64,000 nucleotides of DNA from assembly GCA_022827885.1 (NCBI GenBank), contig JAJEIP010000081.1, forward strand, positions 1-64,000. The letters run 5' to 3'. A program made the position numbers and the translations under genes. This document shows positions 2,608-58,534 of this stretch, in pieces (position 1 is the stretch's first letter; each line of letters starts with the position of its first letter). The notes beneath the pieces were generated by a model, which worked only from the letters and a program-made list of their open reading frames with translations, searched no databases and was not told the DNA's origin. This DNA comes from Candidatus Poribacteria bacterium. GTDB lineage: Bacteria > Poribacteria > WGA-4E > WGA-3G.

Positions 2608-4356
2608 ATGATCGAAACACTCTCTATTCGCAACATTGCCCTCATAGATGAACTTGATTTGGAACTGGCATCGGGTCTGAATATTTTCACGGGCGAGACG
2701 GGTGCTGGTAAGTCGGTTATTCTCAGGTCGATCGGATTGGTATTGGGTGAGAGAGCCTCCGCTGATATTGTCCGTGAAGATACCGATTTCGCGGAAGTAA
2801 TAGCAAGCGTTGCTCCCGACGATGAACATCCGATCTGGCATACAAACTCTGATGAAACGGCTGATCCAGTCCTGAAAGGTTCTTTTAGCGATATACTGGA
2901 TCCATCGGATGCCGTGATCCTCTCCAGAAGAATCACCGCGAACGGTAGGAGTCGTTGCCAAGTCAACGGACGCTTGGTGAATTTGAAGCAACTGCAAGCC
3001 CTCGGCACATTACTTGTCGATATACACGGTCAACACGAACACCAATCGTTATTTAGAACACAGACGCATCTCAAACTCTTGGACGATTTCGGCGGCAACA
3101 GTGAGGCACAACGACACGTCGGCAAGATATACGCCCAGTTACGGACTTTGCAACAAGAAGCAGCGTCTCTGGCGGAAACCTTGAAAGCATCAGAACGGGA
3201 AAAGGAACTCCTCGAATTTGAAATTAAAGAGCTGACTTCGGCACATCTGGAGGAAGGCGAAGACGAAAAATTGGCAGATGAAGCGCGGATCTTGAAGAAC
3301 GCAGAGGCGTTGCGCAAATCCGCAAACTACGTGTATCAACAACTGGATAGCGGCGGCTCTGAGATGGGAAGTTACGGCAGCCCGCTTGAACGCCTGAAAG
3401 ACGCCGCGAAGGAACTGATAAAATTGTCCGAAATTGATGACAGCCTTTCGGAATTGGGAGACCGGTTGGAATCATCGCTTTACGAATTGGAGGACATCAC
3501 TTCACAGGTCCGATACTATTCAGAAACGATCGAGTCCAATTCAATGCGGTTGGACGAAGTGACCGATCGGTTAGCGTTGATAGCGAAACTCAAACGCCGC
3601 TACGGAAACACTATTGCAGAGATATTGGCGTATCACGCCGATGCGGAAGAAAAATTAGAGACGCTACACCTCGGGACAGAGAAACAGGATTTGCTGCAGA
3701 CGGAGATCGACAGCACCATTCAAGAAGCACAACGGCTATGTACTACGCTCTCCGCGAAGCGGCAGCACGTTGCTCAGCATCTTTCAGAACGGATCGAAAA
3801 GGAGTTACGCACGCTCGGGATGGACAAAGCGGAATTTCATGCCTCCGTTCGGCTCATGCCGGATGCGCGGGGTCCGTTTCAGATAGACGGGCAACGCTAT
3901 GCCTTCCGCGCCGATGGGATGGACGACGTGGAATTCTTAATTGCACCGAATGTAGGATCCGAAGCGCGTCCGATCGCCAGAATCGCATCAGGTGGTGAAA
4001 TCTCGCGTATCATGCTCGCATTAAAAACAGTGTTGGTTCAAGTCGACGAGATCCCTACACTGCTCTTTGACGAAATCGACAGCGGCATCGGCGGCAAGGT
4101 TGCAGACGTAGTCGGCAAAAAGTTGAAGGAACTCTCAGCATCTTCTCAGGTTATTTGCATTACACATTTGCCACAGATTGCCCGTTTTGCAGATAGACAT
4201 TTTCGGGTCGAAAAGCAGGTGATCGGCGAGCGGACCCTGATTACTGCGAAATCGTTGACCGCAGAAGAACAGGTTAACGAAATCGCCCGAATGCACGGCG
4301 GTGAAGAAACCGAAATAGGACTTGCACATGCCCGAGAACTATTGTCCGAAAAATAG
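2608..4356 (+). CDS. recN: DNA repair protein RecN
   Basis: An SMC-like ATPase of 582 residues, the usual RecN length, acting in double-strand-break repair. The N-terminal half has Walker A GETGAGKS (about residue 29) followed by LRSIGLVLGERAS. A coiled-coil-rich central region runs from about residue 150 to 390 (many E/K/L heptads). The C-terminal half has the ABC signature IASGGEISRIMLALK (about 455), Walker B LLFDEIDSGIGG (about 483) and the CITHLPQIA switch. No part appears missing. The start has no strong Shine-Dalgarno. The upstream bases AATGGTTTAAAAA resemble the end of the dispersed leader repeat but lack its AAGG. The gene stands alone behind the structured-repeat gap. Confidence 0.95.
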   Translation: MIETLSIRNIALIDELDLELASGLNIFTGETGAGKSVILRSIGLVLGERASADIVREDTDFAEVIASVAPDDEHPIWHTNSDETADPVLKGSFSDILDPSDAVILSRRITANGRSRCQVNGRLVNLKQLQALGTLLVDIHGQHEHQSLFRTQTHLKLLDDFGGNSEAQRHVGKIYAQLRTLQQEAASLAETLKASEREKELLEFEIKELTSAHLEEGEDEKLADEARILKNAEALRKSANYVYQQLDSGGSEMGSYGSPLERLKDAAKELIKLSEIDDSLSELGDRLESSLYELEDITSQVRYYSETIESNSMRLDEVTDRLALIAKLKRRYGNTIAEILAYHADAEEKLETLHLGTEKQDLLQTEIDSTIQEAQRLCTTLSAKRQHVAQHLSERIEKELRTLGMDKAEFHASVRLMPDARGPFQIDGQRYAFRADGMDDVEFLIAPNVGSEARPIARIASGGEISRIMLALKTVLVQVDEIPTLLFDEIDSGIGGKVADVVGKKLKELSASSQVICITHLPQIARFADRHFRVEKQVIGERTLITAKSLTAEEQVNEIARMHGGEETEIGLAHARELLSEK

Positions 4357-4468
4357 CTTTTAATTCATGGGCCCCTGAGCGGCTTACCACGGCATTTCCG
4401 GCAGGCCTCCCAAAGACAGGACGTTTGCCAAAGATGCCCAACCGCGCACAAGCACTCATTAAAAAAGT

Positions 4469-4559
4469 GCGCAGCTTGGAATGTAGTGGAAAGCGACTCT
4501 ACGGAGTAGAATGTCAATAGCCAAACCAATCGGACCGAACCGCAAGGAACATTTAAAAA
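4469..4559 (+). repeat. Dispersed leader-type repeat, full copy upstream of the indolepyruvate oxidoreductase gene
   Basis: Starts GCGCAGCTTGGAATGTAGTG and ends CGGACCGAACCGCAAGG then AACATTTAAAA, immediately before the ATG at 4560. The AAGGA inside the element is the only good ribosome-binding site for that gene, 10 bases from the start. The closest relative is the copy at 63787-63877. Confidence 0.8.
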
Positions 4560-7500
4560 ATGGACGACAGGTTTACACAAGCCAGTGGAACACATGTCTA
4601 TACCGGATGCGAGTTATTAGTTAAGGGTGCCTTAGAGAGCGGTGTTAGCCTCCTCACGGGTTACCCCGGCTCCCCACTCGCCGAAGTATTTGACACTATT
4701 GAACGCAATGCTGAATTGTTGAAAACCAACGGCATCGTCGCGCAGATAGCCAACAACGAGGCATTGAGTATCGCGCGCCTCAACGGTTCGCAGATGGCGG
4801 ATGTCCGCGCGATTGCATTTATGAAGAGTGTTGGCTTTCATGTCGCCGCTGATTCACTGGCGATCAGTAACCTTGCAGGAACAACCGGGGGTGCCGTTGT
4901 TGTGGTCGGTGACGATACATGGTCCCATAGCACACAGGTCCCCGCTGATTCCCGATTCTTGGCACGGCATGTCCAAACACCTCTGATTGAACCTGCGACA
5001 TTTCAGGAACTTAAGGACTGGGTTCACTGCGCCTTCCAAATTTCCGCGGCATCGAACCTCTACGTCTGCTACTTAACTACCGAAAACCAGGCAAGCGGCG
5101 GGGGCGCTGTAGAACTCCATCCTAACATTTATCCCGAAATTAGCGACTTGAAGCAGATCAACTTGGATACCCAACACATCGATGCCGATAAACGGGTCAT
5201 TCTCCCGCCACATACTGCACAGATTGAAGTGGAGGCATTGAGAGAGCGGATCCCCACCGCCCTTGAGACAGCCCGGAACCTCGGACTTAACACAATCCAG
5301 TTCATAGAAGAAACGCCAAATCGGAAGAAACACCGCCTCGGGTTTGTCAGTGCGGGTTTGGCTTATAGTTGCCTGCTCCATGCCCTCGGGGAACTCGGGT
5401 TGGACGGTGAAATCCCGATTCTCAAACTCGGTATGACGCATCCTATTGACAAGGACCTCATCAGAGAATTCGCTGCAGAGGTCGAGGAAATCTACGTGGT
5501 TGAGGAAAAACGTCCGCTTTTAGAGAACGAAATAAAAGCATTCATCACGCAAGGATATCAGAATGGCGATATGGATCGATATGTAAACGTGTGGGGCAAA
5601 CAATTTCCCAACGGCTTGGCAGGAATTCCGGTAACTTCTGGTTTAGATACCTCTATCCTTATTCAAAAACTTATCCCACTTCTCAAACATCTCTTCGGTA
5701 ATGGCAGTCGGCAATCAGCAGCCAGCAAGAGAGGAATCGGGGTTACAAACCCCTCCCACAACCTCTTTACCGAAAGCCATACAGCAACCTATCACGATCC
5801 AAAAATCGATCTGGAACATATCTCAGGTGAGGAAACACTCCAACAACAGGTCTCCGCCCAGCACATCGACATTCCCCAGCGGACCCCTACCTTTTGTCCG
5901 GGCTGTCCGCATCGTGATTCTTCGAGCGTCTTCCTTGAAATTACGAAACAATTCATGGATGCGGATTATATGAAGAAACATCATGATTTAGGACCGGTTG
6001 ATCTCGTTTTTCATGGGGATATCGGTTGCTATTCAATGCTGAAATATGAACCGTTTCCACGTTTAATGCACAATCTTTCCGCGATGGCATTGGGTGGCGG
6101 TGCGGGGGCTGGTATTGACCCATTTATCACAAACAAGCAGATCGTTTTCATGGGGGATTCGACCTTTTTCCACGGCGGGATGGCAGCGATTTCGGATTCA
6201 ATCAAAAACAACCAAGACATCGCCTACATTATTTTAGACAATCAGACAACAGCGATGACGGGACATCAACCGACACCCGCGGGTGAGCTTGACCTCCTCG
6301 GCAATCCGACGTTCGCACAAGATATTGAGCAAGTCGCACAAGGACTCGTGGGTAATTCCGATATAGAAATCGTGCGGACCAACCCGGAAGACAGGGTGAA
6401 CTATAAAAAACATCTGGAGAAAACCATTCTGAAATCGGGTGTCAAAATTATCATCGCCGATAAGGAGTGTGCGATTACCTATCAGCGTCGCATCCGACGC
6501 GAACAACGGCAAACAGTCGCTAAAGATGGTTTTCTTAAATACGAAAAGCATATTAATATAACGCCTGAGGTCTGTGAGTTTTGTCGAGAATGTACCACTG
6601 CCACGGGATGTCCGGGATTAAAAATAGTCGATACCGATTACGGTGAGAAAATCGCCATCGATCAGTCAAATTGTGTTTCCGATGGTGCTTGCGCCCGAAT
6701 TAAATACGCATGTCCAGCGTTTGAAGAGGTTATTGTCACCCGCAAATGCCCGCCTCAAGATCAAACAACAACCTCCAGAAATCGTGCACTCTTGAGTGAT
6801 GAACCTTTACCACCGCCCCCCCTAGGGACATTCGAGCAGCGGTGGAACATGTACGCCGCCGGTGTCGGGGGCATGGGGATTGGCACGATTTCAAAAGTCC
6901 TCGTGGTTGCCGGTTATCTTCAGGGCTACGACGTGACGTTTTGCGATAGGAAAGGATTGGCAATCCGCAATGGCGGTGTTTACACCCACATCACATATAT
7001 GCAACCGGGTGTTCACGCCTCGCCAATGATTCCTTATGGTAAGGCGGATCTTCTATTAGGGCTTGATATTTTAGAAGCCGTCCGGGGTATCACTGCGCAA
7101 TCGCTCTTCCGCATCGCGTCATCACATCGAACCACTGCTGTCGTGAATACAGCGAAAACTGAAACGATAACCACGCTCATCGGTAAAGACCATTTTGATC
7201 CAGAGACCCTTGAAGCGTCCCTCCAGACCTATACGAATGCGGACACATATTTTGGGACGGATCTATTTACAGTTTCTGAGCAATTGTTCGGGAGCAAACT
7301 CTACGCGAACATGATGCTTCTGGGGACAGCCTTCCAACGGCAAATGATACCTCTGGAATTGGAACCCCTCCAATTGGCACTTAAGCAGATGGTCCCGCAC
7401 GCCGATTTGGATACCAATATGAAAGCGTTCACCGTTGGACGCCGTCTTGCCTTAGAAAACATCGAATCCCTTGCGGATACACATTCAGAAAAGTATCCGC

Positions 7501-11220: not shown

Positions 11221-11420
11221 AAAAAACTCTTGACTTTTTTTAGGAAAAAGTTGTATAATTTATATTAAAAGTGCCTGTGAGAATAAACTGCTTACAGGTC
11301 CCCCATATTGGTTGAGATGTAAAACGCCTGCGGAGTCCGTGTAAGACCTCATACAATCAGCACTACGATGCTGGCGGCGGCAGTGGACGTTGAAACAGGA
11401 ACTACCTCTACAGACATAAC
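11221..11420 (+). mobile_element. Probable IS200/IS605-type remnant forming the leader of the OmpA-like gene
   Basis: Two parts of this gene-free stretch (11021-11461) resemble the TnpB element at 15040-16420. First, the promoter region: AAAAAA, then TTGACT, an 18-base gap and TATAATTTATATTA, against AAAAAAGA TTTGACT ... TATAATTAGTATTA. Second, 11324-11350 (TAAAACGCCTGCGGAGTCCG, then TGTAAGACCTC) matches 16327-16354 (TAAAACGCTTGTGGAGTTTG, then TGTAAGACCTC), the right-end scaffold of the element. The tnpB body is absent, so this looks like an internally deleted copy. A CCTGTGAG/CTTACAGG hairpin lies at about 11274-11297. Confidence 0.5.
11230..11259 (+). promoter_or_regulatory. Sigma-70-type promoter of the OmpA-like lipoprotein gene
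   Basis: TTGACT (11230-11235), an 18-base spacer and a perfect TATAAT (11254-11259). It would give a leader of about 195 bases to the ATG at 11462, long enough to hold the structured IS-like segment. Confidence 0.65.
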
Positions 11421-11461
11421 CAGTTATCTGCAATTATCTGTAGTAAAAGGAGCAGGAATCC

Positions 11462-12340
11462 ATGATAAGTAGAACCGCTTTCACAATTATCGCTCTTCTG
11501 GGTGTTGCACTTGTTGTGAGTAGTTGCGGCAAGTTAGATCAGGAAGAGTTTGAAATGTGGAAGAATGAACATGTCTCAAAGATGGAACAAAGTGAAGCAG
11601 ACATGTCAAACAAGATTACAATGCTGGATGGCAAGGTTGATCAGCAGGGCAAAGATCTAACGGAAGCCATTTCCAAGGCAAAAGATGAGGCGATTGCCGT
11701 ATCCCAACAAGGGGATGCCGATACCATCGCTGCTGCGAATCAAAGCGCCAAAGAGCAGGATGCGCAACTCCGTGCAGACCTGACAGCGGCTCTTGATGCG
11801 CACGCCCAAGAATCGATGGCATCTGTCGAAGCTGCAAAGGCAGAACATGAAGAAGGGTTCATGGCACTTAAAAAAGCCAATATGGCTCAGGACGAGACGG
11901 TAGAGAAACTCGCGTCTCGAGTGATGGCTTTGGAAGAAGGTTTAGCGATGGTGGCAGAAGAAGTTGCCTCAGCCCCCACACTGCTGGTTACCGTCACTTT
12001 CGCCAGTGGTCGCACCAGTTTATCCGGCGACGCGGAGCAGATGCTTGACGGTATCGTTGAACAACTCATGGAAGCTTCGGACGCAAAGATCAAGGTTGTT
12101 GGACACGCGGACGGCATGCCGGTGCTGAAGGGAAATTACGGAAGTAATTGGGATCTCTCACAGGCACGTGCGAACTCCGCTGCAAAATACCTGAAATCCA
12201 AAGGAATTGAGGCTGGCAGAATTGAGGCTGTTGGCAAAGCACACACGGATCCTGTTGCGCCACAGAACACTGCCGCAGGTAGAGCCATGAACCGTCGGGT
12301 CGAAGTTATTCTGGTTCCTGCACATGGCCATTCACATTAA
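11462..12340 (+). CDS. OmpA/Pal-like lipoprotein with coiled-coil stalk
   Basis: A 292-residue envelope protein. It begins with a lipoprotein signal (hydrophobic core, then VVSSC with the acceptor Cys at about residue 22). A long charged, Ala/Glu/Lys-rich region (30-160) should form a coiled-coil stalk. The C-terminal 110 residues are an OmpA peptidoglycan-binding domain (VTFASGRTSLSGDAEQML, VVGHADG, LSQARANSAAKYL, GRAMNRRVEVIL), with the NxxLSxxRA-type segment present as NWDLSQARA. The tail HGHSH is His-rich. A strong AAGGAG lies 10 bases before the ATG. The likely role is tethering the outer membrane to peptidoglycan. It has its own strong promoter. Confidence 0.88.
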   Translation: MISRTAFTIIALLGVALVVSSCGKLDQEEFEMWKNEHVSKMEQSEADMSNKITMLDGKVDQQGKDLTEAISKAKDEAIAVSQQGDADTIAAANQSAKEQDAQLRADLTAALDAHAQESMASVEAAKAEHEEGFMALKKANMAQDETVEKLASRVMALEEGLAMVAEEVASAPTLLVTVTFASGRTSLSGDAEQMLDGIVEQLMEASDAKIKVVGHADGMPVLKGNYGSNWDLSQARANSAAKYLKSKGIEAGRIEAVGKAHTDPVAPQNTAAGRAMNRRVEVILVPAHGHSH

Positions 12341-12350
12341 TTTTAAACGA

Positions 12351-12490
12351 TTCATTCGGTGGAAGCCGCTTTAGTTCCACTGCCTTAATGAATGCAGCCC
12401 CAAAGCTCCTGTATCAATACATAGGCGGGTCGCTAACGGAGGCACGCCATCACAACGATAGTGATCGCGTGACCTCCGAGTACTCGCCTA
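12351..12490 (+). other. Two strong intergenic hairpins
   Basis: Hairpin 1 (12351-12392) nests TTCATT/AATGAA around GTGGAA/TTCCAC. Hairpin 2 (12422-12490) stacks TAGGCGgGT/ACtCGCCTA, GGAGG/CCTCC, CACGC/GCGTG and ATCAC/GTGAT around the loop AACGATA. Neither is followed by a T-run. They lie between the OmpA-like gene and the outer-membrane barrel gene, where they could stabilise or partly end the upstream transcript. Confidence 0.6.
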
Positions 12491-12542
12491 TTGCTGTCAT
12501 ATCACTGCTCTATATGTGCAGTGGATAAGGACTTTATTACTT

Positions 12543-13226
12543 ATGCGTTTGGTATTTGCCTGCTGTTTGTTTCTGTTGTTAATTCCCTGCCTAACACTTG
12601 CAGATACCGCCGATGGACAACCCTTGAGACCCTCCCCTGTCCGAGATTTTTTGGCAGAATATCTGCACGCTCCATCGTTTCAGGTGTCCCTATTTTCATA
12701 CAAGCCGGAGTTGGGCAGCTTGGAGGATATTCTCCAGAGCGTCGGCGTATCGAGAGTTCCGGGCGCGCTGTTACCAACGGTTTCGGTTGTATTTGAACAT
12801 AGTGCCGAGTTCGATTCACGTTTGGAGTTCGGCTATTGGCAAATGGAACTTGACATCCCACCGCCTACCTCCGCAAATCTCTCTACCACCCTCATCCCGA
12901 TTTCGTATCAGTTTATCTATCGTCCAGTGCTGCTCTCCGAATATCTCCCAATTTACTTGGGGGGCGGTATCGGTTATTTGGGAACACGCCTGAGTGGTAG
13001 TGCAATCGACCTCATTGAACAACAGGGTATCAGCTTTGACAATAGTCCTTCAGGACCAACCGGGTATGTCCTCATCGGGGCAGAACTGCTGGAGTGGGAG
13101 CAGAACCTATCCCTCAACTTTGAGGTGAAACGGATACTCAAAACAGTCGAAACAACTGGCACTATCCCACTCGACCTGATTTTAGACGGTACTGCGATCG
13201 GTTTAGGCATTAAAATGCGGCTTTAA
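12543..13226 (+). CDS. Small outer-membrane beta-barrel-like protein
   Basis: The protein has a clear signal peptide (MRLVFACCLFLLLIPCLTLA, then DT). The mature part has alternating hydrophobic/polar strands and Gly/aromatic-rich turns (ELGSLEDILQ, EFGYWQMELD, YLGGGIGYLG, FEVKRILKT) and ends in the strand LGIGLGIKMRL. This is the look of an outer-membrane barrel of about 200 residues; no named family was recognised. ATG 12543 is preferred to the upstream GTG 12516 because AAGGA lies 11 bases before it and the signal peptide then starts correctly. The stop lies one base before the next ATG, so the ligase-like gene is probably translationally coupled. Confidence 0.65.
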   Translation: MRLVFACCLFLLLIPCLTLADTADGQPLRPSPVRDFLAEYLHAPSFQVSLFSYKPELGSLEDILQSVGVSRVPGALLPTVSVVFEHSAEFDSRLEFGYWQMELDIPPPTSANLSTTLIPISYQFIYRPVLLSEYLPIYLGGGIGYLGTRLSGSAIDLIEQQGISFDNSPSGPTGYVLIGAELLEWEQNLSLNFEVKRILKTVETTGTIPLDLILDGTAIGLGIKMRL

Positions 13227-13227
13227 A

Positions 13228-14628
13228 ATGGAAACCATAAAGCATGGTAAGCGAATTTTCCCATTTGTCGTCTGTCTTGTATTCGGTTGTATCATCGGTG
13301 GTTACTCGGACACACCGCTCCCACTTCTCAGTTTGCTGGCTGTAACTTGTGCTTTCGTCTTTTTAGGCATGGAGCTTGCGGTCTATCTGCTGTTAATCGC
13401 CCTGCCATTTTCATTCCGCTACATTCTCCCGGGTCGTTTTGAGATTCAAACACCGACAGAACCCCTCTTAGGGATGTTCGTTGCCGTTTACTGCGTGCGA
13501 CGCATACTGGATCGGGTAATCCAGCCCGGAATCGGAGTTCCGTCCGACAGGACTAAACCGGAAAATACCTTCCCTTTTTTTGCCCCGCTCTGCTTCTACA
13601 TCCTTATTACATTCCTTTCTGCAATCAACACCCCCGATCTTTTTGGCACACTTAAGGGAGCACTCCGTGCGACAGTCTACATGCTGTTCAGTGTGATAGT
13701 GTACACTGTCATCCAAAACAGGACCTCCCTGAAACGGCTGTTTGTTGCCAGTTTCCCGTCCGCTGCGGTTGCCGTCATCTGGACAGTTATTGTCCTCATC
13801 TATCACATAGATGCCTGGCAGTGGACCAGTGCGTATCGGAGTGCGCCGTTTACCAATTATTCCGTCTACGGTGCGTTTGCTGCGCTTTTCTTCCTCGTCT
13901 GCTTGAGTCGTCTTCTCTTTGACAATAGTGGGTACGACCGTGTGCTCTGGACGGCATGGTTCTTATGCTTCGGTGTGGGACTCTTATTCTGCTTTTCGCG
14001 TGGCGTCTGGCTATCGGTCATCGTTGCGATCGGTTTCATGTTGCTGCAACTGGGGAAAGGCGTTACGCATAAAAAGATTCTGTTTATCGGTACGGCATGC
14101 TTGATCTTACTGGCGTGTCTGAATCTACCCGGCATCTACAATATTCTCGTTGAACGTGTCACATCCGCGGTGGACCTCAGTTACGCTTCAAACCGAGCGC
14201 GTCTCTTACGATGGGGACAGGCTTTCGTGATGTTCGCTGAAAGCCCTATTTTGGGTAAGGGATATGGTGCGTTTGCGATGTTATACGAGGAAGATGTGGC
14301 ACTTGTTGGAAGTTATACAGCACAGTATCAACTCGGTGCCCACAGCGAATACCTTCAAGTGATGGCGGAATTGGGGATCGTTGGATTAGGGATATGGGTA
14401 TGGCTGAACTTTGCCTTCCTACGCTACGGGTTTCGTGCCCTCCAAACGTTAGAAGACGGCTTTTACCGTGCTATGGTCATTGGATTAATGGCGGCAGAAA
14501 TTTCATTGATGGTGCACTTCACAGTAAACAATTTGCTGAACGGGGACGCCATTGGGGTTCCCTTCTGGGGTATCTACGGATTACTGCCTGCTGTTGTGCA
14601 AATGGCGAACCGCGAAAAGACTTCATGA
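13228..14628 (+). CDS. O-antigen ligase / Wzy-like polytopic membrane protein
   Basis: A 466-residue inner-membrane protein with about ten hydrophobic segments. A larger periplasmic loop (about 300-385) contains NRARLLRWGQAFVMFAESPI, LGKGYGAFA and GAHSEYLQVMAELG, the conserved Wzy_C/O-antigen ligase block with its typical Arg and His. Another marker is FCFSRGVWLS at about 250. Family members transfer or polymerise undecaprenyl-linked glycans at the outer face of the inner membrane. The gene follows the barrel gene by one base. Substrate cannot be inferred, and no other polysaccharide genes adjoin it. Confidence 0.8.
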   Translation: METIKHGKRIFPFVVCLVFGCIIGGYSDTPLPLLSLLAVTCAFVFLGMELAVYLLLIALPFSFRYILPGRFEIQTPTEPLLGMFVAVYCVRRILDRVIQPGIGVPSDRTKPENTFPFFAPLCFYILITFLSAINTPDLFGTLKGALRATVYMLFSVIVYTVIQNRTSLKRLFVASFPSAAVAVIWTVIVLIYHIDAWQWTSAYRSAPFTNYSVYGAFAALFFLVCLSRLLFDNSGYDRVLWTAWFLCFGVGLLFCFSRGVWLSVIVAIGFMLLQLGKGVTHKKILFIGTACLILLACLNLPGIYNILVERVTSAVDLSYASNRARLLRWGQAFVMFAESPILGKGYGAFAMLYEEDVALVGSYTAQYQLGAHSEYLQVMAELGIVGLGIWVWLNFAFLRYGFRALQTLEDGFYRAMVIGLMAAEISLMVHFTVNNLLNGDAIGVPFWGIYGLLPAVVQMANREKTS

Positions 14629-54393: not shown

Positions 54394-55278
54394 TTACTGC
54401 TTAAGCCGTCCCCATGTTGTCGTGAGTTTTCCATGGGGTTCGACTGCGAGTGTGTTTCCAGTCTTTGCGCCATTTTTACCCACCAGATGGTGTGCGTTGC
54501 CCGATGCGTCTGAAAATTTCTGTGTTCCGCTCGGTTCATCAAAATGCCACAGCGCAATCGTCTTTGCATCATTCTTGAACTTTGTGCGCGGCGTGAAACC
54601 GTTTTTGTCGACCTCGTAACGCGCAACCGTTGAGACACGGACCTCATCAATACATCCCGCAAAAGAGCCCCAAAAGTAATTATTGCGCTTCTCAATTTTC
54701 TTCCCAAATCCTCCGAGTGTAAAATCCTTTGGGTGCTTGAATTCTGCGAGATCGTGTGCCAGCCTTATTCCTTGCGGTACGATCTTTGCGACATCGTTAA
54801 CGATGGTTGCTGTCTCTCTCCCTTTCGCCTGATAAGCGATGTGATGCCATTGGTTCGGGGAAAGTGTTACCGGGCGGAACCCTGTCCCGGCATCCCCTCG
54901 CCCCCTATCAATATACGCTTGCATTGCTAACATTAAATCTCCCTTCTGCCAATCGATCTCCTTCTTTATGTTCTTCCATCCGTCTTGATCGTCACCCACG
55001 ACATTCATCAGCACCTGTTGGCTGAGGATCGTTGCGCGTGTATCCTTGTCAGGTGGTGTGGTCGGATACACCCATGCTTCAACGGTAAACTCGTCTGTGC
55101 CTTTTGGCAAGAGGACACCGAAGGTTTTAAAATCTAAAACCGCATAGTCGTCCACCCCATCAAGGATTAAGTAGTTCCCCCCAGCGGGTGAAGGGGGTGG
55201 GAATGCTTTGGCACGCAACGGGGTTAGTGCAAGCAAAAAGAGGCAAGCAAAAAGAGGCAGATTTCGTAAAGGTGTCAT
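54394..55278 (-). CDS. Exported LamG/concanavalin A-like domain protein
   Basis: A 294-residue protein with a signal peptide (LPLFACLFLLALTPLRAKA). One LamG-like beta-sandwich spans about 35-280: YLILDGVDDYAVLD, DEFTVEAWVYPTT, NQWHHIAYQAKG, GCIDEVRVSTVARY and IALWHFDEPSG, the standard string of conserved blocks. It should bind glycans or protein ligands outside the inner membrane. AGGAG lies 10 bases before the ATG. The gene is 77 bases downstream of the sigma-propeller gene on the same strand and ends in a strong terminator, so it is probably in its operon. Confidence 0.85.
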   Translation of the reverse strand: MTPLRNLPLFACLFLLALTPLRAKAFPPPSPAGGNYLILDGVDDYAVLDFKTFGVLLPKGTDEFTVEAWVYPTTPPDKDTRATILSQQVLMNVVGDDQDGWKNIKKEIDWQKGDLMLAMQAYIDRGRGDAGTGFRPVTLSPNQWHHIAYQAKGRETATIVNDVAKIVPQGIRLAHDLAEFKHPKDFTLGGFGKKIEKRNNYFWGSFAGCIDEVRVSTVARYEVDKNGFTPRTKFKNDAKTIALWHFDEPSGTQKFSDASGNAHHLVGKNGAKTGNTLAVEPHGKLTTTWGRLKQ

Positions 55279-55355: not shown

Positions 55356-58271
55356 TTATTTCTCTTGATTCTCTTCAAGGGAGATATAAAAAAGTCCTTT
55401 CTCTTTAATCCTATAGACATAATCGGTAGCACTATAGAGCTTACCGTTAGCGATGGCAAGAGCACTGATTTCATCTGGCACTTCTGAAGAAATCTGTTCC
55501 CATTGCATATGCCTATCCAAACGATAGCCGCCAGCATCACTGATACCATAAACTTTGCTCCCATCTGCAGCAAACCTATTTATGATAGGACGCTTTCCTG
55601 CGTTATCGGTTAGCACAAGCCACTGTTCCCCAGTTTGGGAACTCATAACGCCATTATCTGTTGCGACGTAAAGGGTTGACCCTACAAAGACTATATCGTT
55701 GAAGCGAGTGAAACGGAGCGGCAGGCGTGGTGTGACATCTCTCCAACTCTCTCCTCCATCAAGCGACTGAAACAACTTACCGTCCCGTTTACCTACGTAG
55801 ATGGTTTCCCCTAAAACTGCTAATTTGAACCCCTTTCTAAAATCGTCATAACGTAGATGCCCACCATCTACTAATCCGGTGCTTGTCCATTCCGAATCAC
55901 CCAATTTCCATTTGAAAAGCTCTCCCAAGCACTCTACATAAAAGGTATCACGACTCGCTGCAGCAGTCTCAGTTTTGAGACGACCCCAACGAAGATCCTC
56001 TTGATCCTTTGACTTATGATATTTTTCATAGGCAAGTTTTTTACGATCGAAAACGGGGACACCTTGAACTGGAATTAGCATATCGCCATCAGTAGATAAA
56101 CGGAAAATACTCAACTTGTCCCCTACACCTGAAAGAGAATAAAGAATGTTGCCAACAGGAATCAGTTTTGACTCATAATTTATTCTGGTAGTGGGGATGT
56201 TGATTACAACTTCTTGCCCATGATTCCAAAGTTTTTTCCAAGACACACCGTCATCCGTTGATTGATAAACTTCATAGCCAGTATGGGCGTACAATTTGTT
56301 GTTAAACGCGACGAGATCGATTATAACAGCTCCCATCATCCCATCCATAAATATATGCCATGATGCACCTCCATCCGTCGTACGGTGAATGCCCCAGAAA
56401 TTCGCTTTGTAGTACGTTTTATCGTTGACCATAATCGCTGGAAGGCGACTTTTTCCCAAAAAATTCTGGTCAGCTTCAAGTTCCGACCACGTTTGTCCAC
56501 GATCTGTTGAACGAGATTGGGCGTAACTCAATGCCAAGAGCGTTTTACCGGTTGCTAAAACCGTTATACCTGCTGGCGAAGTTTTGCGAAGATGTTTACT
56601 TCCAAGCCTTATTTCAGTCCACGACGCACCCAAGTCAGTCGAATGGAAGATCTCGGTAAAATGTAAATCTCCGTGATCTATCTGTTGTAACTCCATGGGC
56701 GTTAATCTCACCAACAGCTCATGCCCTATCCCAGCATAAAGATTATTCCCAGAAACTGCCAAGGAACAGACGGCTCCCGATGTATGCAGTGGCAATTTTT
56801 TCCAGATACCTGAATCGAGACGGTAGAGACCACTTTCCGTCCCCGCAAACACCGTTTTTCCAACAGCAGTCATTGCGGAAACTTTTTCCGCTGTCAATCC
56901 CTCATTCAGAGGACGCCAGTGCGCGCTCCCATCTGTAGATCGGAATATTTTTTCATCTCTCAGGGCGAGATACATCGTAAAAGGCACTTGTGAACTGGAC
57001 GCTTCCTCGGCATTTGTGATGACGAGTTCAACGGCATCTCCTGTGGGTCGGGGACCCAGCGTCCTCCACGTCTCACCGCTGTTGTCTGAAGCAAATATCT
57101 CATCGGCAGCAACAATATAAAGCGTCCCTTCATACGCTGTCATCGGCATGAATGCTTCGCCAATTGGGACGCTCGTGTCAACGCGTGTCCATGCCGTCGT
57201 ATCCTCCATTAATCTGTATATCCCTGTTTGTATAACGGCATAGACAGTCCCGTCGGATGTGGCAAAGATATTGCGGACAGGACCTGCTGGCGGTGCGTTT
57301 CCCTGCTGCCACTGCGCAGTAGCAAGCTTAGTGAAATTCTCCATCGTAGCAGATGTTGAGTTCACATTAGAGACTTGTGTGCCGGCACTGTTAGTTTTGT
57401 CAGGAGTCGTAGCGCGGCCGACTTGACTTCGCACAGCGGGTTTCGCTGTTATATCCAGGATGATAGGCGCGTCGATGATTTCAACCGTGGGTTCAGATTG
57501 TGCTTCAAAACTATACGGCTTCTGGAAACGGGTGAGGTATCGGTTGCTCGTGCCGAGGAGCAAAGCGATCAAAATCGCAGCTGCACCCAACGTCATCCAT
57601 GGAAGGAGCGGTTTAGACGCCGGAACCGGTGCCGGATTCATCTCAGAAACCTGCTGCATGATGTTCTCGCTTACACTTGCCGGTATTTGCACGCCGCCGA
57701 GAACCTCTTGAATTAATGCCTCCTGCTGTTCTTGCAAACGCTTTCGCGCTCGCTGGAGTCGGCTTGTAATTGTGTTCACGGACACGCCTAAGAATTTGCT
57801 AATCTCCTTGGTCGTCATTTTACCGAGGTAATAGAGCGTCACGACGGTGCGTTCGCTCTCCGGGAGCTTTGCGAGGAGTTTTTTGACGAGTTCATGGTGC
57901 TGCTCCGTGCGTTCTGTTTCTCGCTGTCCTGCTACGTGATGGGTATAAGAGACTCTCTCGATTTCTTCCACAGGTGTGTCCTCCAGCGATTGCATGACAG
58001 ATTTATTCTTTTCGAGCCATTTAAGACAGAGTCGATTGGCAATGACATACATCCATCCTAAGAGTTGATTCGGATTCCTTAGCTGCGAGAGATTCTTGTA
58101 TACTTGGAGGAACGTGTCTTGGGTAATTTCTTCAGCGATATGAAAATCACCAATCTTCCGCCACGCAAGTGCATGAATACTCCCTTGATATTTTTGAACT
58201 AAGGTTTCAAATGCCGTATCGTCACCTGACAAAATTCTACGAATGAGTTGAATATCGTCTTCTCTTTCCAT
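55356..58271 (-). CDS. ECF sigma factor fused through a membrane helix to a BNR beta-propeller
   Basis: A 971-residue protein. Residues 1-185 are a complete ECF sigma factor: region 2 with DFHIAEEITQDTFLQVYKNL and LGWMYVIANRLCLKWLEKN, then region 4 with LPESERTVVTLYYLGKMTTK, EISKFLGVSVNTITSRLQRA, a canonical helix-turn-helix. Residues about 185-222 form a linker and about 223-242 a hydrophobic helix (PWMTLGAAAILIALLLG). After a low-complexity stretch (about 255-320), residues 325-965 form a large propeller with Asp-box repeats (SGETWRTL, STDGSAHWRP, STDLGASWTE, STDRGQTWSE, TTDGGASWHI, STDDGVSWKK, SLDGGESWRD). The N-terminus is cytosolic and the propeller should be extracytoplasmic, so this looks like a one-protein membrane-bound sigma factor with its own sensor. 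GGAG lies 7 bases before ATG. Confidence 0.9.
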   Translation of the reverse strand: MEREDDIQLIRRILSGDDTAFETLVQKYQGSIHALAWRKIGDFHIAEEITQDTFLQVYKNLSQLRNPNQLLGWMYVIANRLCLKWLEKNKSVMQSLEDTPVEEIERVSYTHHVAGQRETERTEQHHELVKKLLAKLPESERTVVTLYYLGKMTTKEISKFLGVSVNTITSRLQRARKRLQEQQEALIQEVLGGVQIPASVSENIMQQVSEMNPAPVPASKPLLPWMTLGAAAILIALLLGTSNRYLTRFQKPYSFEAQSEPTVEIIDAPIILDITAKPAVRSQVGRATTPDKTNSAGTQVSNVNSTSATMENFTKLATAQWQQGNAPPAGPVRNIFATSDGTVYAVIQTGIYRLMEDTTAWTRVDTSVPIGEAFMPMTAYEGTLYIVAADEIFASDNSGETWRTLGPRPTGDAVELVITNAEEASSSQVPFTMYLALRDEKIFRSTDGSAHWRPLNEGLTAEKVSAMTAVGKTVFAGTESGLYRLDSGIWKKLPLHTSGAVCSLAVSGNNLYAGIGHELLVRLTPMELQQIDHGDLHFTEIFHSTDLGASWTEIRLGSKHLRKTSPAGITVLATGKTLLALSYAQSRSTDRGQTWSELEADQNFLGKSRLPAIMVNDKTYYKANFWGIHRTTDGGASWHIFMDGMMGAVIIDLVAFNNKLYAHTGYEVYQSTDDGVSWKKLWNHGQEVVINIPTTRINYESKLIPVGNILYSLSGVGDKLSIFRLSTDGDMLIPVQGVPVFDRKKLAYEKYHKSKDQEDLRWGRLKTETAAASRDTFYVECLGELFKWKLGDSEWTSTGLVDGGHLRYDDFRKGFKLAVLGETIYVGKRDGKLFQSLDGGESWRDVTPRLPLRFTRFNDIVFVGSTLYVATDNGVMSSQTGEQWLVLTDNAGKRPIINRFAADGSKVYGISDAGGYRLDRHMQWEQISSEVPDEISALAIANGKLYSATDYVYRIKEKGLFYISLEENQEK

Positions 58272-58534
58272 CAGGATACTCCATAATCAATGAATAGATT
58301 GAACAAGCCGCGTCTTTTAATATCGGGAACTCACACAGTGTGTTAGCATTCTATAATTAAAGATACGTTTTCAGGATGGAAAACGTGCATAATCTGAAAA
58401 AAAATGAATGGGATATGGATTTATGACAAGATGTTTTGGGGAATTGGGTGGGAAACTTGTTAAATCGCTGATTGTGAGGAATACACAGCAGCTGCCTCGG
58501 AAAGGCATCCTAGTGGATAGCACTCAGGACACAC

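Follow-up and report, generated by a model that had tools for sequence, protein, structure and literature searches.

In the 64,000-nucleotide (nt) window analysed here (contig JAJEIP010000081.1 of a Candidatus Poribacteria bacterium, a sponge-associated type), one gene encodes a complete extracytoplasmic function (ECF) sigma factor, a predicted transmembrane (TM) helix and an Asp-box double propeller in a single polypeptide of 971 amino acids (aa). The protein belongs to a phylum-wide family of such fusions, its gene has an ECF-type promoter of its own, residues of the sigma factor covary with bases of the promoter, and genes for LamG-domain proteins are conserved neighbours. In the favoured reading, which is held with moderate confidence, the protein is a membrane-tethered, self-contained and autoregulated receptor-sigma factor that is released by proteolysis. 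The coordinates of all features are compiled in Table 1.

Domain Architecture of the Fusion Protein

The open reading frame (ORF) lies on the minus strand, a point left unstated in the initial annotation; it is intact, starts with ATG and has zero internal stop codons, and the plus strand is rich in stops. Pfam analysis revealed matches above the cut-off to Sigma70_r2 (residues 24-90) and Sigma70_r4_2 (residues 127-179) and, in the C-terminal part, to Sortilin-Vps10 and DUF6242. Sigma region 3 had no Pfam match in the protein, and, thus, its composition is that of an ECF sigma factor, i.e., regions 2 and 4 without regions 1.1 and 3. The TIGR02937 model (sigma70-ECF) scored 95 bits, compared to a cut-off of 43. 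Residues 222-240 are the only strong hydrophobic stretch, with a Kyte-Doolittle mean of 2.14. The protein contains five strict Asp boxes (S.[DN].G..W). The BNR match in the propeller was weak and under its own Pfam cut-off, further weak sequence matches were to BNR glycosyl hydrolase, Ycf48 and xyloglucanase (GH74 match, E 7e-4), and none of the 23 Pfam matches of the protein was to a WD40 family.

AlphaFold modelled the C-terminal part as a propeller, with predicted local distance difference test (pLDDT) values mostly of 80-93 over residues 330-950 and some weaker loops. The closest solved folds of the full model were GH74 xyloglucanases, followed, among others, by BT4673 and BT4663, periplasmic sensors of hybrid two-component systems. 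The top-ranked folds of the propeller were secreted or periplasmic proteins. The ORF, the Pfam and TIGR02937 matches, the hydropathy and the model bore out the initial annotation, which had described a complete ECF sigma factor followed by a hydrophobic helix and an Asp-box propeller. An assembly join was rejected, because the same order recurs in many genomes, including the multi-megabase chromosome records OX639992, OX639973, OX638352 and OY282374.

The conservation of the layout was analyzed with homologues from 76 loci, three of which (L073, L102, L076) were under 850 aa; L059, in which the gene is cut at its start, was left out. All 73 full-length homologues examined had the sigma-TM-propeller order, the hydrophobic segment at the same place (lowest mean 1.85), the motif FQ.PY and at least four Asp boxes. 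They had been chosen by similarity to the query, so that the domain order was partly forced, whereas the hydrophobicity was not. The order and the hydrophobic segment postulated initially are, thus, kept in the homologues.

The Fusion Family in the Genome and the Phylum

Sigma region 2 was matched 53 times in the assembly of the organism (5.13 Mb on 148 contigs); the surroundings of most matches were fetched as 40 stretches, and three matches were left out. This revealed 24 intact sigma-TM fusions, including C64_102527, for which the fetched stretch ended inside the gene, yet contained an open frame of 1044 aa. The outer domains were an Asp-box propeller in 14 cases, leucine-rich repeats (LRR) in three, Kelch in one and a thioredoxin-like domain in one, and five had no Pfam match. 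A genome search with the linker/TM segment retrieved the same 24 proteins, the split copy C148:16452 and one weak match on C104. The position of the TM helix and a juxtamembrane segment resembling FQ.PYSF are common to all 24, with C12 and C144 diverging after FQKLY, and this segment is also present in the fusions of the LRR, Kelch and thioredoxin types.

In the named genome collection at least 77 fusion loci were found, and all of them were from Candidatus Poribacteria among the matches listed. The TM module was present in 67 of the 84 genomes of the phylum, i.e., in 58/58 of the family of the window, in 9/14 others of the order and in 0/12 outside the order. The copy number ranged from 1 to at least 54 per genome in the family of the window (the higher counts were bounded by the candidates scored) and from 1 to 3 in the others of the order. 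No description of this fusion family was found in the literature searched, which covers few subscription journals.

The charges flanking the TM helix were compared for 97 proteins. The mean number of lysines and arginines was 2.9 in the 20 residues before the helix versus 2.0 after it, and the number was higher on the N-terminal side in 61/97 proteins, with the reverse in 13/97. This modest evidence mildly supports a topology with the N-terminus inside, i.e., with the sigma factor in the cytoplasm.

The Promoter of the Fusion Gene and Genome-Wide Sites

Words common to the upstream regions of 72 non-redundant fusion genes led to TTATGCACCCTTT and a GTC-TTTAAT block. A two-block matrix was trained on 21 sites and scored leave-one-out, with the 98% level of shuffled upstream regions as threshold. 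An ECF-type promoter above this threshold was found before 56/99 fusion genes, while two were expected. The promoter of the fusion gene was the sole such site found in the window.

A genome search with the exact pattern gave 33 matches on many contigs, the window site among them, versus three for the reversed control. By position, 11 of the 33 sites precede sigma-fusion genes, and many of the remaining sites stand before genes for exported or transport proteins (Table 1). The genes behind two other sites had no Pfam match, no clear ORF followed three more sites, and C143:117182 was left out. The expectation that target promoters lie before the fusion gene itself and before LamG-type genes was, thus, confirmed, both by the high-scoring site in the window and by the sites in LamG operons and elsewhere in the genome. 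The -35 pattern was found directly before none of the fusions with H169, and it was also missing directly before many with the recognition helices ANTITSRL or NTITSRL. For L089 and L090, which have H169, TGCAAG sites were found 1.8-1.9 kb upstream.

Covariation of Sigma Factor Residues and Promoter Bases

The 259 protein columns of residues 1-300 were scanned against the promoter bases in 62 non-redundant of the 72 pairs of fusion protein and promoter. For base 3 of TGCACCCTT (aligned to -34) the best column was residue 170, which explained 93% of the entropy and ranked first of 259. For base 6 (-31) it was residue 169, again first of 259, with 70%; the next column reached 23%. Base 7 was also best explained by residue 169, and base 5 by residues 173 and 166. 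For the first base of the -10 element (GTC or ATC), residues 84, 63 and 60 of region 2 took ranks 1-3. The base following GTC/ATC covaried with columns throughout the protein and is, therefore, read as a clade signal and not as a contact.

In a phmmer alignment, residues 169, 170 and 173 correspond to K170, T171 and H174 of SigW. In the SigW/sigmaE co-crystals, these residues (R171, S172 and F175 of sigmaE) contact G' -31, the -34 base and T'-33 (PMC6713349); the placement of the fusion promoter bases against the SigW element GAAACCT is an alignment made in this analysis. Among the 72 pairs, T169 occurred with G at -31 in 14/15 cases and K or R169 with C in 49/51 cases. S170 occurred with C at -34 in 66/66 cases, T, V or G170 with T in 5/5 cases, and N170 with C once.

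The rule was fixed before 80 more loci from other genomes were fetched. Of these, 23 were dropped as near-identical to the earlier set or among themselves, which left 57; 38 lacked a promoter that passed the score or had a fragment that was too short, and 19 were scored. K169 was paired with C in 11/11 cases, T169 with G in 5/6 cases, and the single G170 with T at -34; Fisher values for this set ignore relatedness. Other promoter-like sites in the loci L041-L117 had T169 with G in 7/7 and K169 with C in 27/33 cases. One of the K169 exceptions lies in L058, where the site serves as promoter for a second window-type fusion. The window protein, thus, has by computation the composition of an ECF sigma factor and an ECF-type promoter of its own in which the -35 element matches region 4. 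Together, the own promoters and the residue-base covariation make it very likely that the sigma part is functional and autoregulates.

Predicted State of the Sigma Factor and Search for an Anti-Sigma Factor

In the first model, which was based on 13 alignment rows, sigma region 2 had a pLDDT below 50, and, therefore, the structure of the sigma part was taken from a 93-row alignment of residues 1-300. This model showed the sigma factor at high confidence together with two more confident helices, 181-192 and 198-211. The whole sigma factor could be fitted to the anti-sigma-bound structures SigW/RsiW (4.7 A over 157 residues) and CnrH/CnrY (3.6 A over 152 residues), in contrast to the polymerase-bound forms, for which most whole-sigma fits had a root mean square deviation near 27 A. 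The structure rows of the VIA-align comparison scarcely reach past residue 189. The match of the compact sigma2/sigma4 arrangement to anti-sigma-bound structures suggests that the model shows an inhibited sigma factor, in which the linker takes the position of the anti-sigma factor.

Matches to the anti-sigma family zf-HC2 were found at five loci of the genome (C43, C19, C78, C33:134637 and C44), each beside a short ordinary ECF gene, showing that the search is able to detect anti-sigma factors in this genome. No zf-HC2 match was found at fusion loci genome-wide or among the Pfam matches of the window protein; other anti-sigma families were not searched genome-wide. By Pfam, the neighbours of the fusion gene are an amidohydrolase, the LamG protein and a beta-lactamase-type protein, none of which is an anti-sigma factor. 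The initial annotation had seen no anti-sigma gene on either side, and this held. On the basis of the zf-HC2 search and the Pfam matches of the window neighbours, a hidden anti-sigma gene next door was rejected. An RseP-type M50 protease is encoded in the genome.

The Probable LamG Partner

LamG-type genes were found in all nine loci in which the fusion shares at least 60% identity with the query (L041-L048 and L058), while the remaining 67 loci examined had weak LamG matches in three cases only. The order in the window is promoter, fusion and LamG gene. In L042, L046, L047 and L048 the promoter precedes the LamG gene and the fusion follows, and the L042 promoter has bases of the window type. 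Based on these arrangements, the genes for the receptor and the LamG protein apparently constitute a single autoregulated unit.

Feature Compilation and Additional Observations

Table 1. Features of the fusion gene and its surroundings in the window, and further promoter sites in the genome.
Feature	Position	Strand	Basis or remark
Sigma-TM-propeller fusion gene, 971 aa	55356..58271	-	ORF, Pfam, homologues
Sigma region 2 (residues 24-90); residues 60, 63 and 84 covary with the first -10 base (GTC/ATC)	58002..58202	-	Pfam, covariation
Sigma region 4 (residues 127-179)	57735..57893	-	Pfam
Residues T169 and S170 of the recognition helix, covarying with own-promoter positions -31 and -34	57762..57767	-	Covariation; contacts from PMC6713349
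Candidate anti-sigma segment within the chain (linker helices 181-192 and 198-211)	57639..57731	-	AlphaFold, 93-row alignment, block pLDDT ~88-94
Predicted TM helix, residues 222-240	57552..57608	-	Hydropathy; model helix 228-249 at low confidence
Conserved juxtamembrane segment, FQKPYSFEA.SEPT.EI.DAPI.LD..KP..R.Q.GR, residues 249-287	57411..57527	-	F249, Q250, P252 and Y253 invariant in 93 rows
Asp-box double propeller, candidate sensor, residues 330-965	55377..57284	-	Pfam, AlphaFold, fold neighbours
Gene for LamG-domain protein, 77 nt downstream of the fusion; signal-like hydrophobic segment at the N-terminus	54394..55278	-	Pfam Laminin_G_3; likely co-transcribed target
ECF-type promoter TGCACGTTTTCCATCCTGAAAACGTATCTTTA, first base 118 nt upstream of ATG	58358..58389	-	Position weight matrix score 23.0 versus 99.5% shuffle level 12.6
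Sites before Kelch genes	C33:13759, C64:96344, C64:98859		Last one by sequence likeness, not Pfam
Sites before LamG genes	C34:21299, C64:97725		
Sites before PD40 propellers	C34:34439, C71:3851		
Site before FG-GAP gene	C132:69306		
Sites before 3-keto-disaccharide hydrolase-like genes	C14:39713, C81:77678		
Sites before ABC transporters	C33:145135, C33:146869, C56:25851, C65:39216		
Site before MoxR-type ATPase	C67:31306		
Site before M16-like protein	C55:7872		Match below Pfam cut-off

Two further arrangements of promoter sites were observed. At about 11344-13900 (+) of L010, a Kelch, a LamG and a Kelch gene stand in a row, each with its own promoter with A at -31. The nearby sigma factor C64_91749 carries A169, and its promoter likewise has A at -31; due to this match, C64_91749 may regulate the row. 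One promoter type is found before both the sigma fusion C33_160205 (L019:13600-17819 (+)) and the gene preceding it, L127:1758-2930, the product of which has a hydrophobic N-terminus and by eye resembles the C-terminal domain of C33_160205.

The genome also encodes other sigma fusions. Two are fused to FtsZ/tubulin (L025:6792-8459 (+) and L019:9906-11126 (+), 556 and 407 aa), which is very unusual. Homologues spanning the FtsZ-sigma junction were found in 17/18 genomes of the same genus and in 0/12 genomes of the same order that were searched, and a separate FtsZ is also present. In another fusion (L019:4845-6575 (+)), an ECF sigma factor is joined to the DNA sliding clamp DnaN, which is complete with all three domains. 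Junction-spanning homologues of this fusion were found in at least 15/18 same-genus genomes among the matches listed, and two separate DnaN genes are present. Further sigma fusions were found at L004:6198-9200 (+), L020:8097-9959 (+) and L006:3035-5173 (-). Their partners are an M61-type peptidase (no TM helix) and thioredoxin-like AhpC/redoxin domains; of the two fusions of the latter kind, one has a TM helix and the other has none.

Discussion

The poribacterial fusions are membrane-fused ECF sigma factors in a new, hugely expanded form. The group ECF243 is characterized by a FecR-type anti-sigma domain and a signalling partner of the TonB-receptor type; FecR was not among the Pfam matches of the window protein, and the window neighbours are not of the ECF243 type. 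A member of this group, IutY of Pseudomonas putida, is a sigma factor fused to a membrane anti-sigma factor and freed by proteolysis, as described in PMC8999054. IutY and the window protein both combine an ECF sigma factor and a TM regulator (here TM by hydropathy) in one polypeptide, but IutY is a cell-surface-signalling sigma factor for a siderophore, whereas the poribacterial proteins have a double propeller, LRR, Kelch or other outer part and occur in dozens of copies. Tt-RpoE1/Tt-TolB of Thermoanaerobacter tengcongensis is an autoregulated system with an ECF sigma factor, a short cytoplasmic stretch, a TM helix and a large TolB part (PMC3397946). Joining its two genes, which are 2 bp apart and include a separate anti-sigma factor, would yield the layout found here in one polypeptide. 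The actinobacterial groups ECF48, ECF52 and ECF53 have C-terminal fusions with TM helices, and SCO4117 has an outside carbohydrate-binding domain (PMC8999054); their fusions contain a zinc-finger anti-sigma domain, in contrast to the poribacterial fusions, for which no zf-HC2 match was found either inside the protein or close to the gene.

Planctomycete ECF sigma factors with WD40 repeats (PMC8567305) and ECF57 (PMC8999054) have C-terminal propeller-type repeats and many paralogues and resemble the poribacterial family in these respects. Their repeats are WD40, while the poribacterial propeller is of the Asp-box/sortilin/DUF6242 type and GH74-like. The initial annotation had placed such fusions in Planctomycetes-like phyla; this applies to the WD40-ECF proteins (PMC8567305), but the organism studied here is poribacterial. 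A functional analogue is the SigI/RsgI set of Clostridium thermocellum, in which sigma systems with sensing parts outside the cell act in parallel and cleavage is by RseP (PMC12203970). SigI is, however, no ECF sigma factor in one piece with its sensor, and RsgI is a separate anti-sigma factor. The window gene also differs from a canonical ECF/anti-sigma pair in that its neighbours include no anti-sigma gene.

From these results we infer how the protein is oriented in the cell, which signal it receives, and how it is inhibited and cleaved. The N-terminal ECF sigma factor would reside in the cytoplasm and be kept inactive by its tether and probably also by the two linker helices, in the role of a built-in anti-sigma factor. 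The single TM helix and the conserved juxtamembrane segment would join it to the double propeller outside. The signal at the propeller would most likely be a glycan, or a ligand of the host or envelope surface, and would trigger cleavage within the membrane or next to it, with the encoded RseP-type protease as the probable enzyme; release by proteolysis is expected because of the analogy to IutY. The freed sigma factor would then direct RNA polymerase to TGCACGTTTT-N-CGTATC promoters, first to that of its own gene, and firing of this promoter would supply more receptor and the co-encoded, secreted LamG protein.

Several results weigh against this reading. The compact form of the sigma factor could be an AlphaFold default, and the TM and juxtamembrane parts were modelled at low confidence. 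43/99 fusion genes had no promoter above the threshold within 400 nt, although for at least some of them the site stands before the upstream gene. The helix type NTIKSRL and near-identical promoters are common to many paralogues, and, thus, cross-talk is likely. In L202, an exception in the test set, T169 is paired with C. A tree test had 2-5 informative switch pairs, nearly all of which were concordant, and was not significant because independent switches were too few; the residue-base claim, therefore, rests on the column ranking, the crystal contacts and the set from other genomes. The gene for an RseP-type protease is unspecific, because an M50 protease was present in all 14 control genomes, too. 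In addition, the Asp-box fusion C8_44529 (L012:11007-13784 (-)) is in frame without the TM helix and the juxtamembrane segment, and in C148_15904 (L016, about 2839-6000 (+)) the TM region is gone and the frame is shifted. These two natural TM-less copies show that the tether is not always kept. C148_15904 leaves a free sigma factor of 218 aa followed by a TM-less propeller frame, and promoter sites are present.

The sigma factor might also be active while it is membrane-bound, i.e., the ligand would alter the linker helices and the tethered sigma factor would recruit the polymerase, with no cleavage. The conservation of the linker, TM and juxtamembrane segments as one unit across differing outer domains would fit this mechanism, and no protease site could be named. 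It is nevertheless regarded as unlikely, since TM-fused ECF sigma factors with data, e.g., IutY, are freed by Prc and RseP (PMC8999054) and a tethered sigma factor would have to reach promoters across the whole chromosome, with sites on many contigs.

Still less probable is a wholly cytoplasmic or peripheral protein, in which the hydrophobic segment would be a buried helix and the propeller an inside platform for protein interactions. The WD40 extensions of ECF57 have been interpreted as protein-interaction modules (PMC8999054), and TM-less sigma fusions to the inside proteins FtsZ and DnaN occur in the same genome. However, these FtsZ- and DnaN-fused sigma factors are without such a hydrophobic segment, which occupies a constant position in 73/73 homologues of the propeller fusion and has a hydropathy of about 1.9-2.5 across 19 residues. 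The charge asymmetry around it and the secreted or periplasmic top-ranked folds of the propeller also argue against a cytoplasmic protein.

Finally, it is very improbable that the fusions are mostly decaying repeats that were spread by duplication and left few working copies: the very high copy number (1 to at least 54 per genome) and the broken copies C148_15904, L073 and L102 are outweighed by the 24 intact frames of a single genome, by own promoters whose bases match the sigma residues, and by homologues in many genomes.

Bacteria normally use at least two proteins, i.e., a sigma and an anti-sigma factor or a kinase and a regulator, to transmit an outside signal to the DNA. In the fusions the receptor and the sigma factor are one chain, present in up to at least 54 copies per genome, with differing sensors and with promoter bases that track the sigma residues. 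For the phylum as a whole we lean, if only slightly, towards the view that Poribacteria possess a large class of one-component receptor-sigma factors, built from a fixed sigma-linker-TM-juxtamembrane module and exchangeable outer sensors, autoregulated by a residue-to-base code, and each controlling local secreted proteins (LamG, Kelch, PD40), in some cases related to the sensor that it carries. If this is true, the class would be the sponge-symbiont counterpart, in one polypeptide, of large sets of hybrid two-component or SigI/RsgI systems. The family would offer a natural table of sigma recognition residues and the -35 and -10 bases that go with them, would allow the prediction of regulons in uncultured sponge symbionts, and would supply parts for one-gene sensors.

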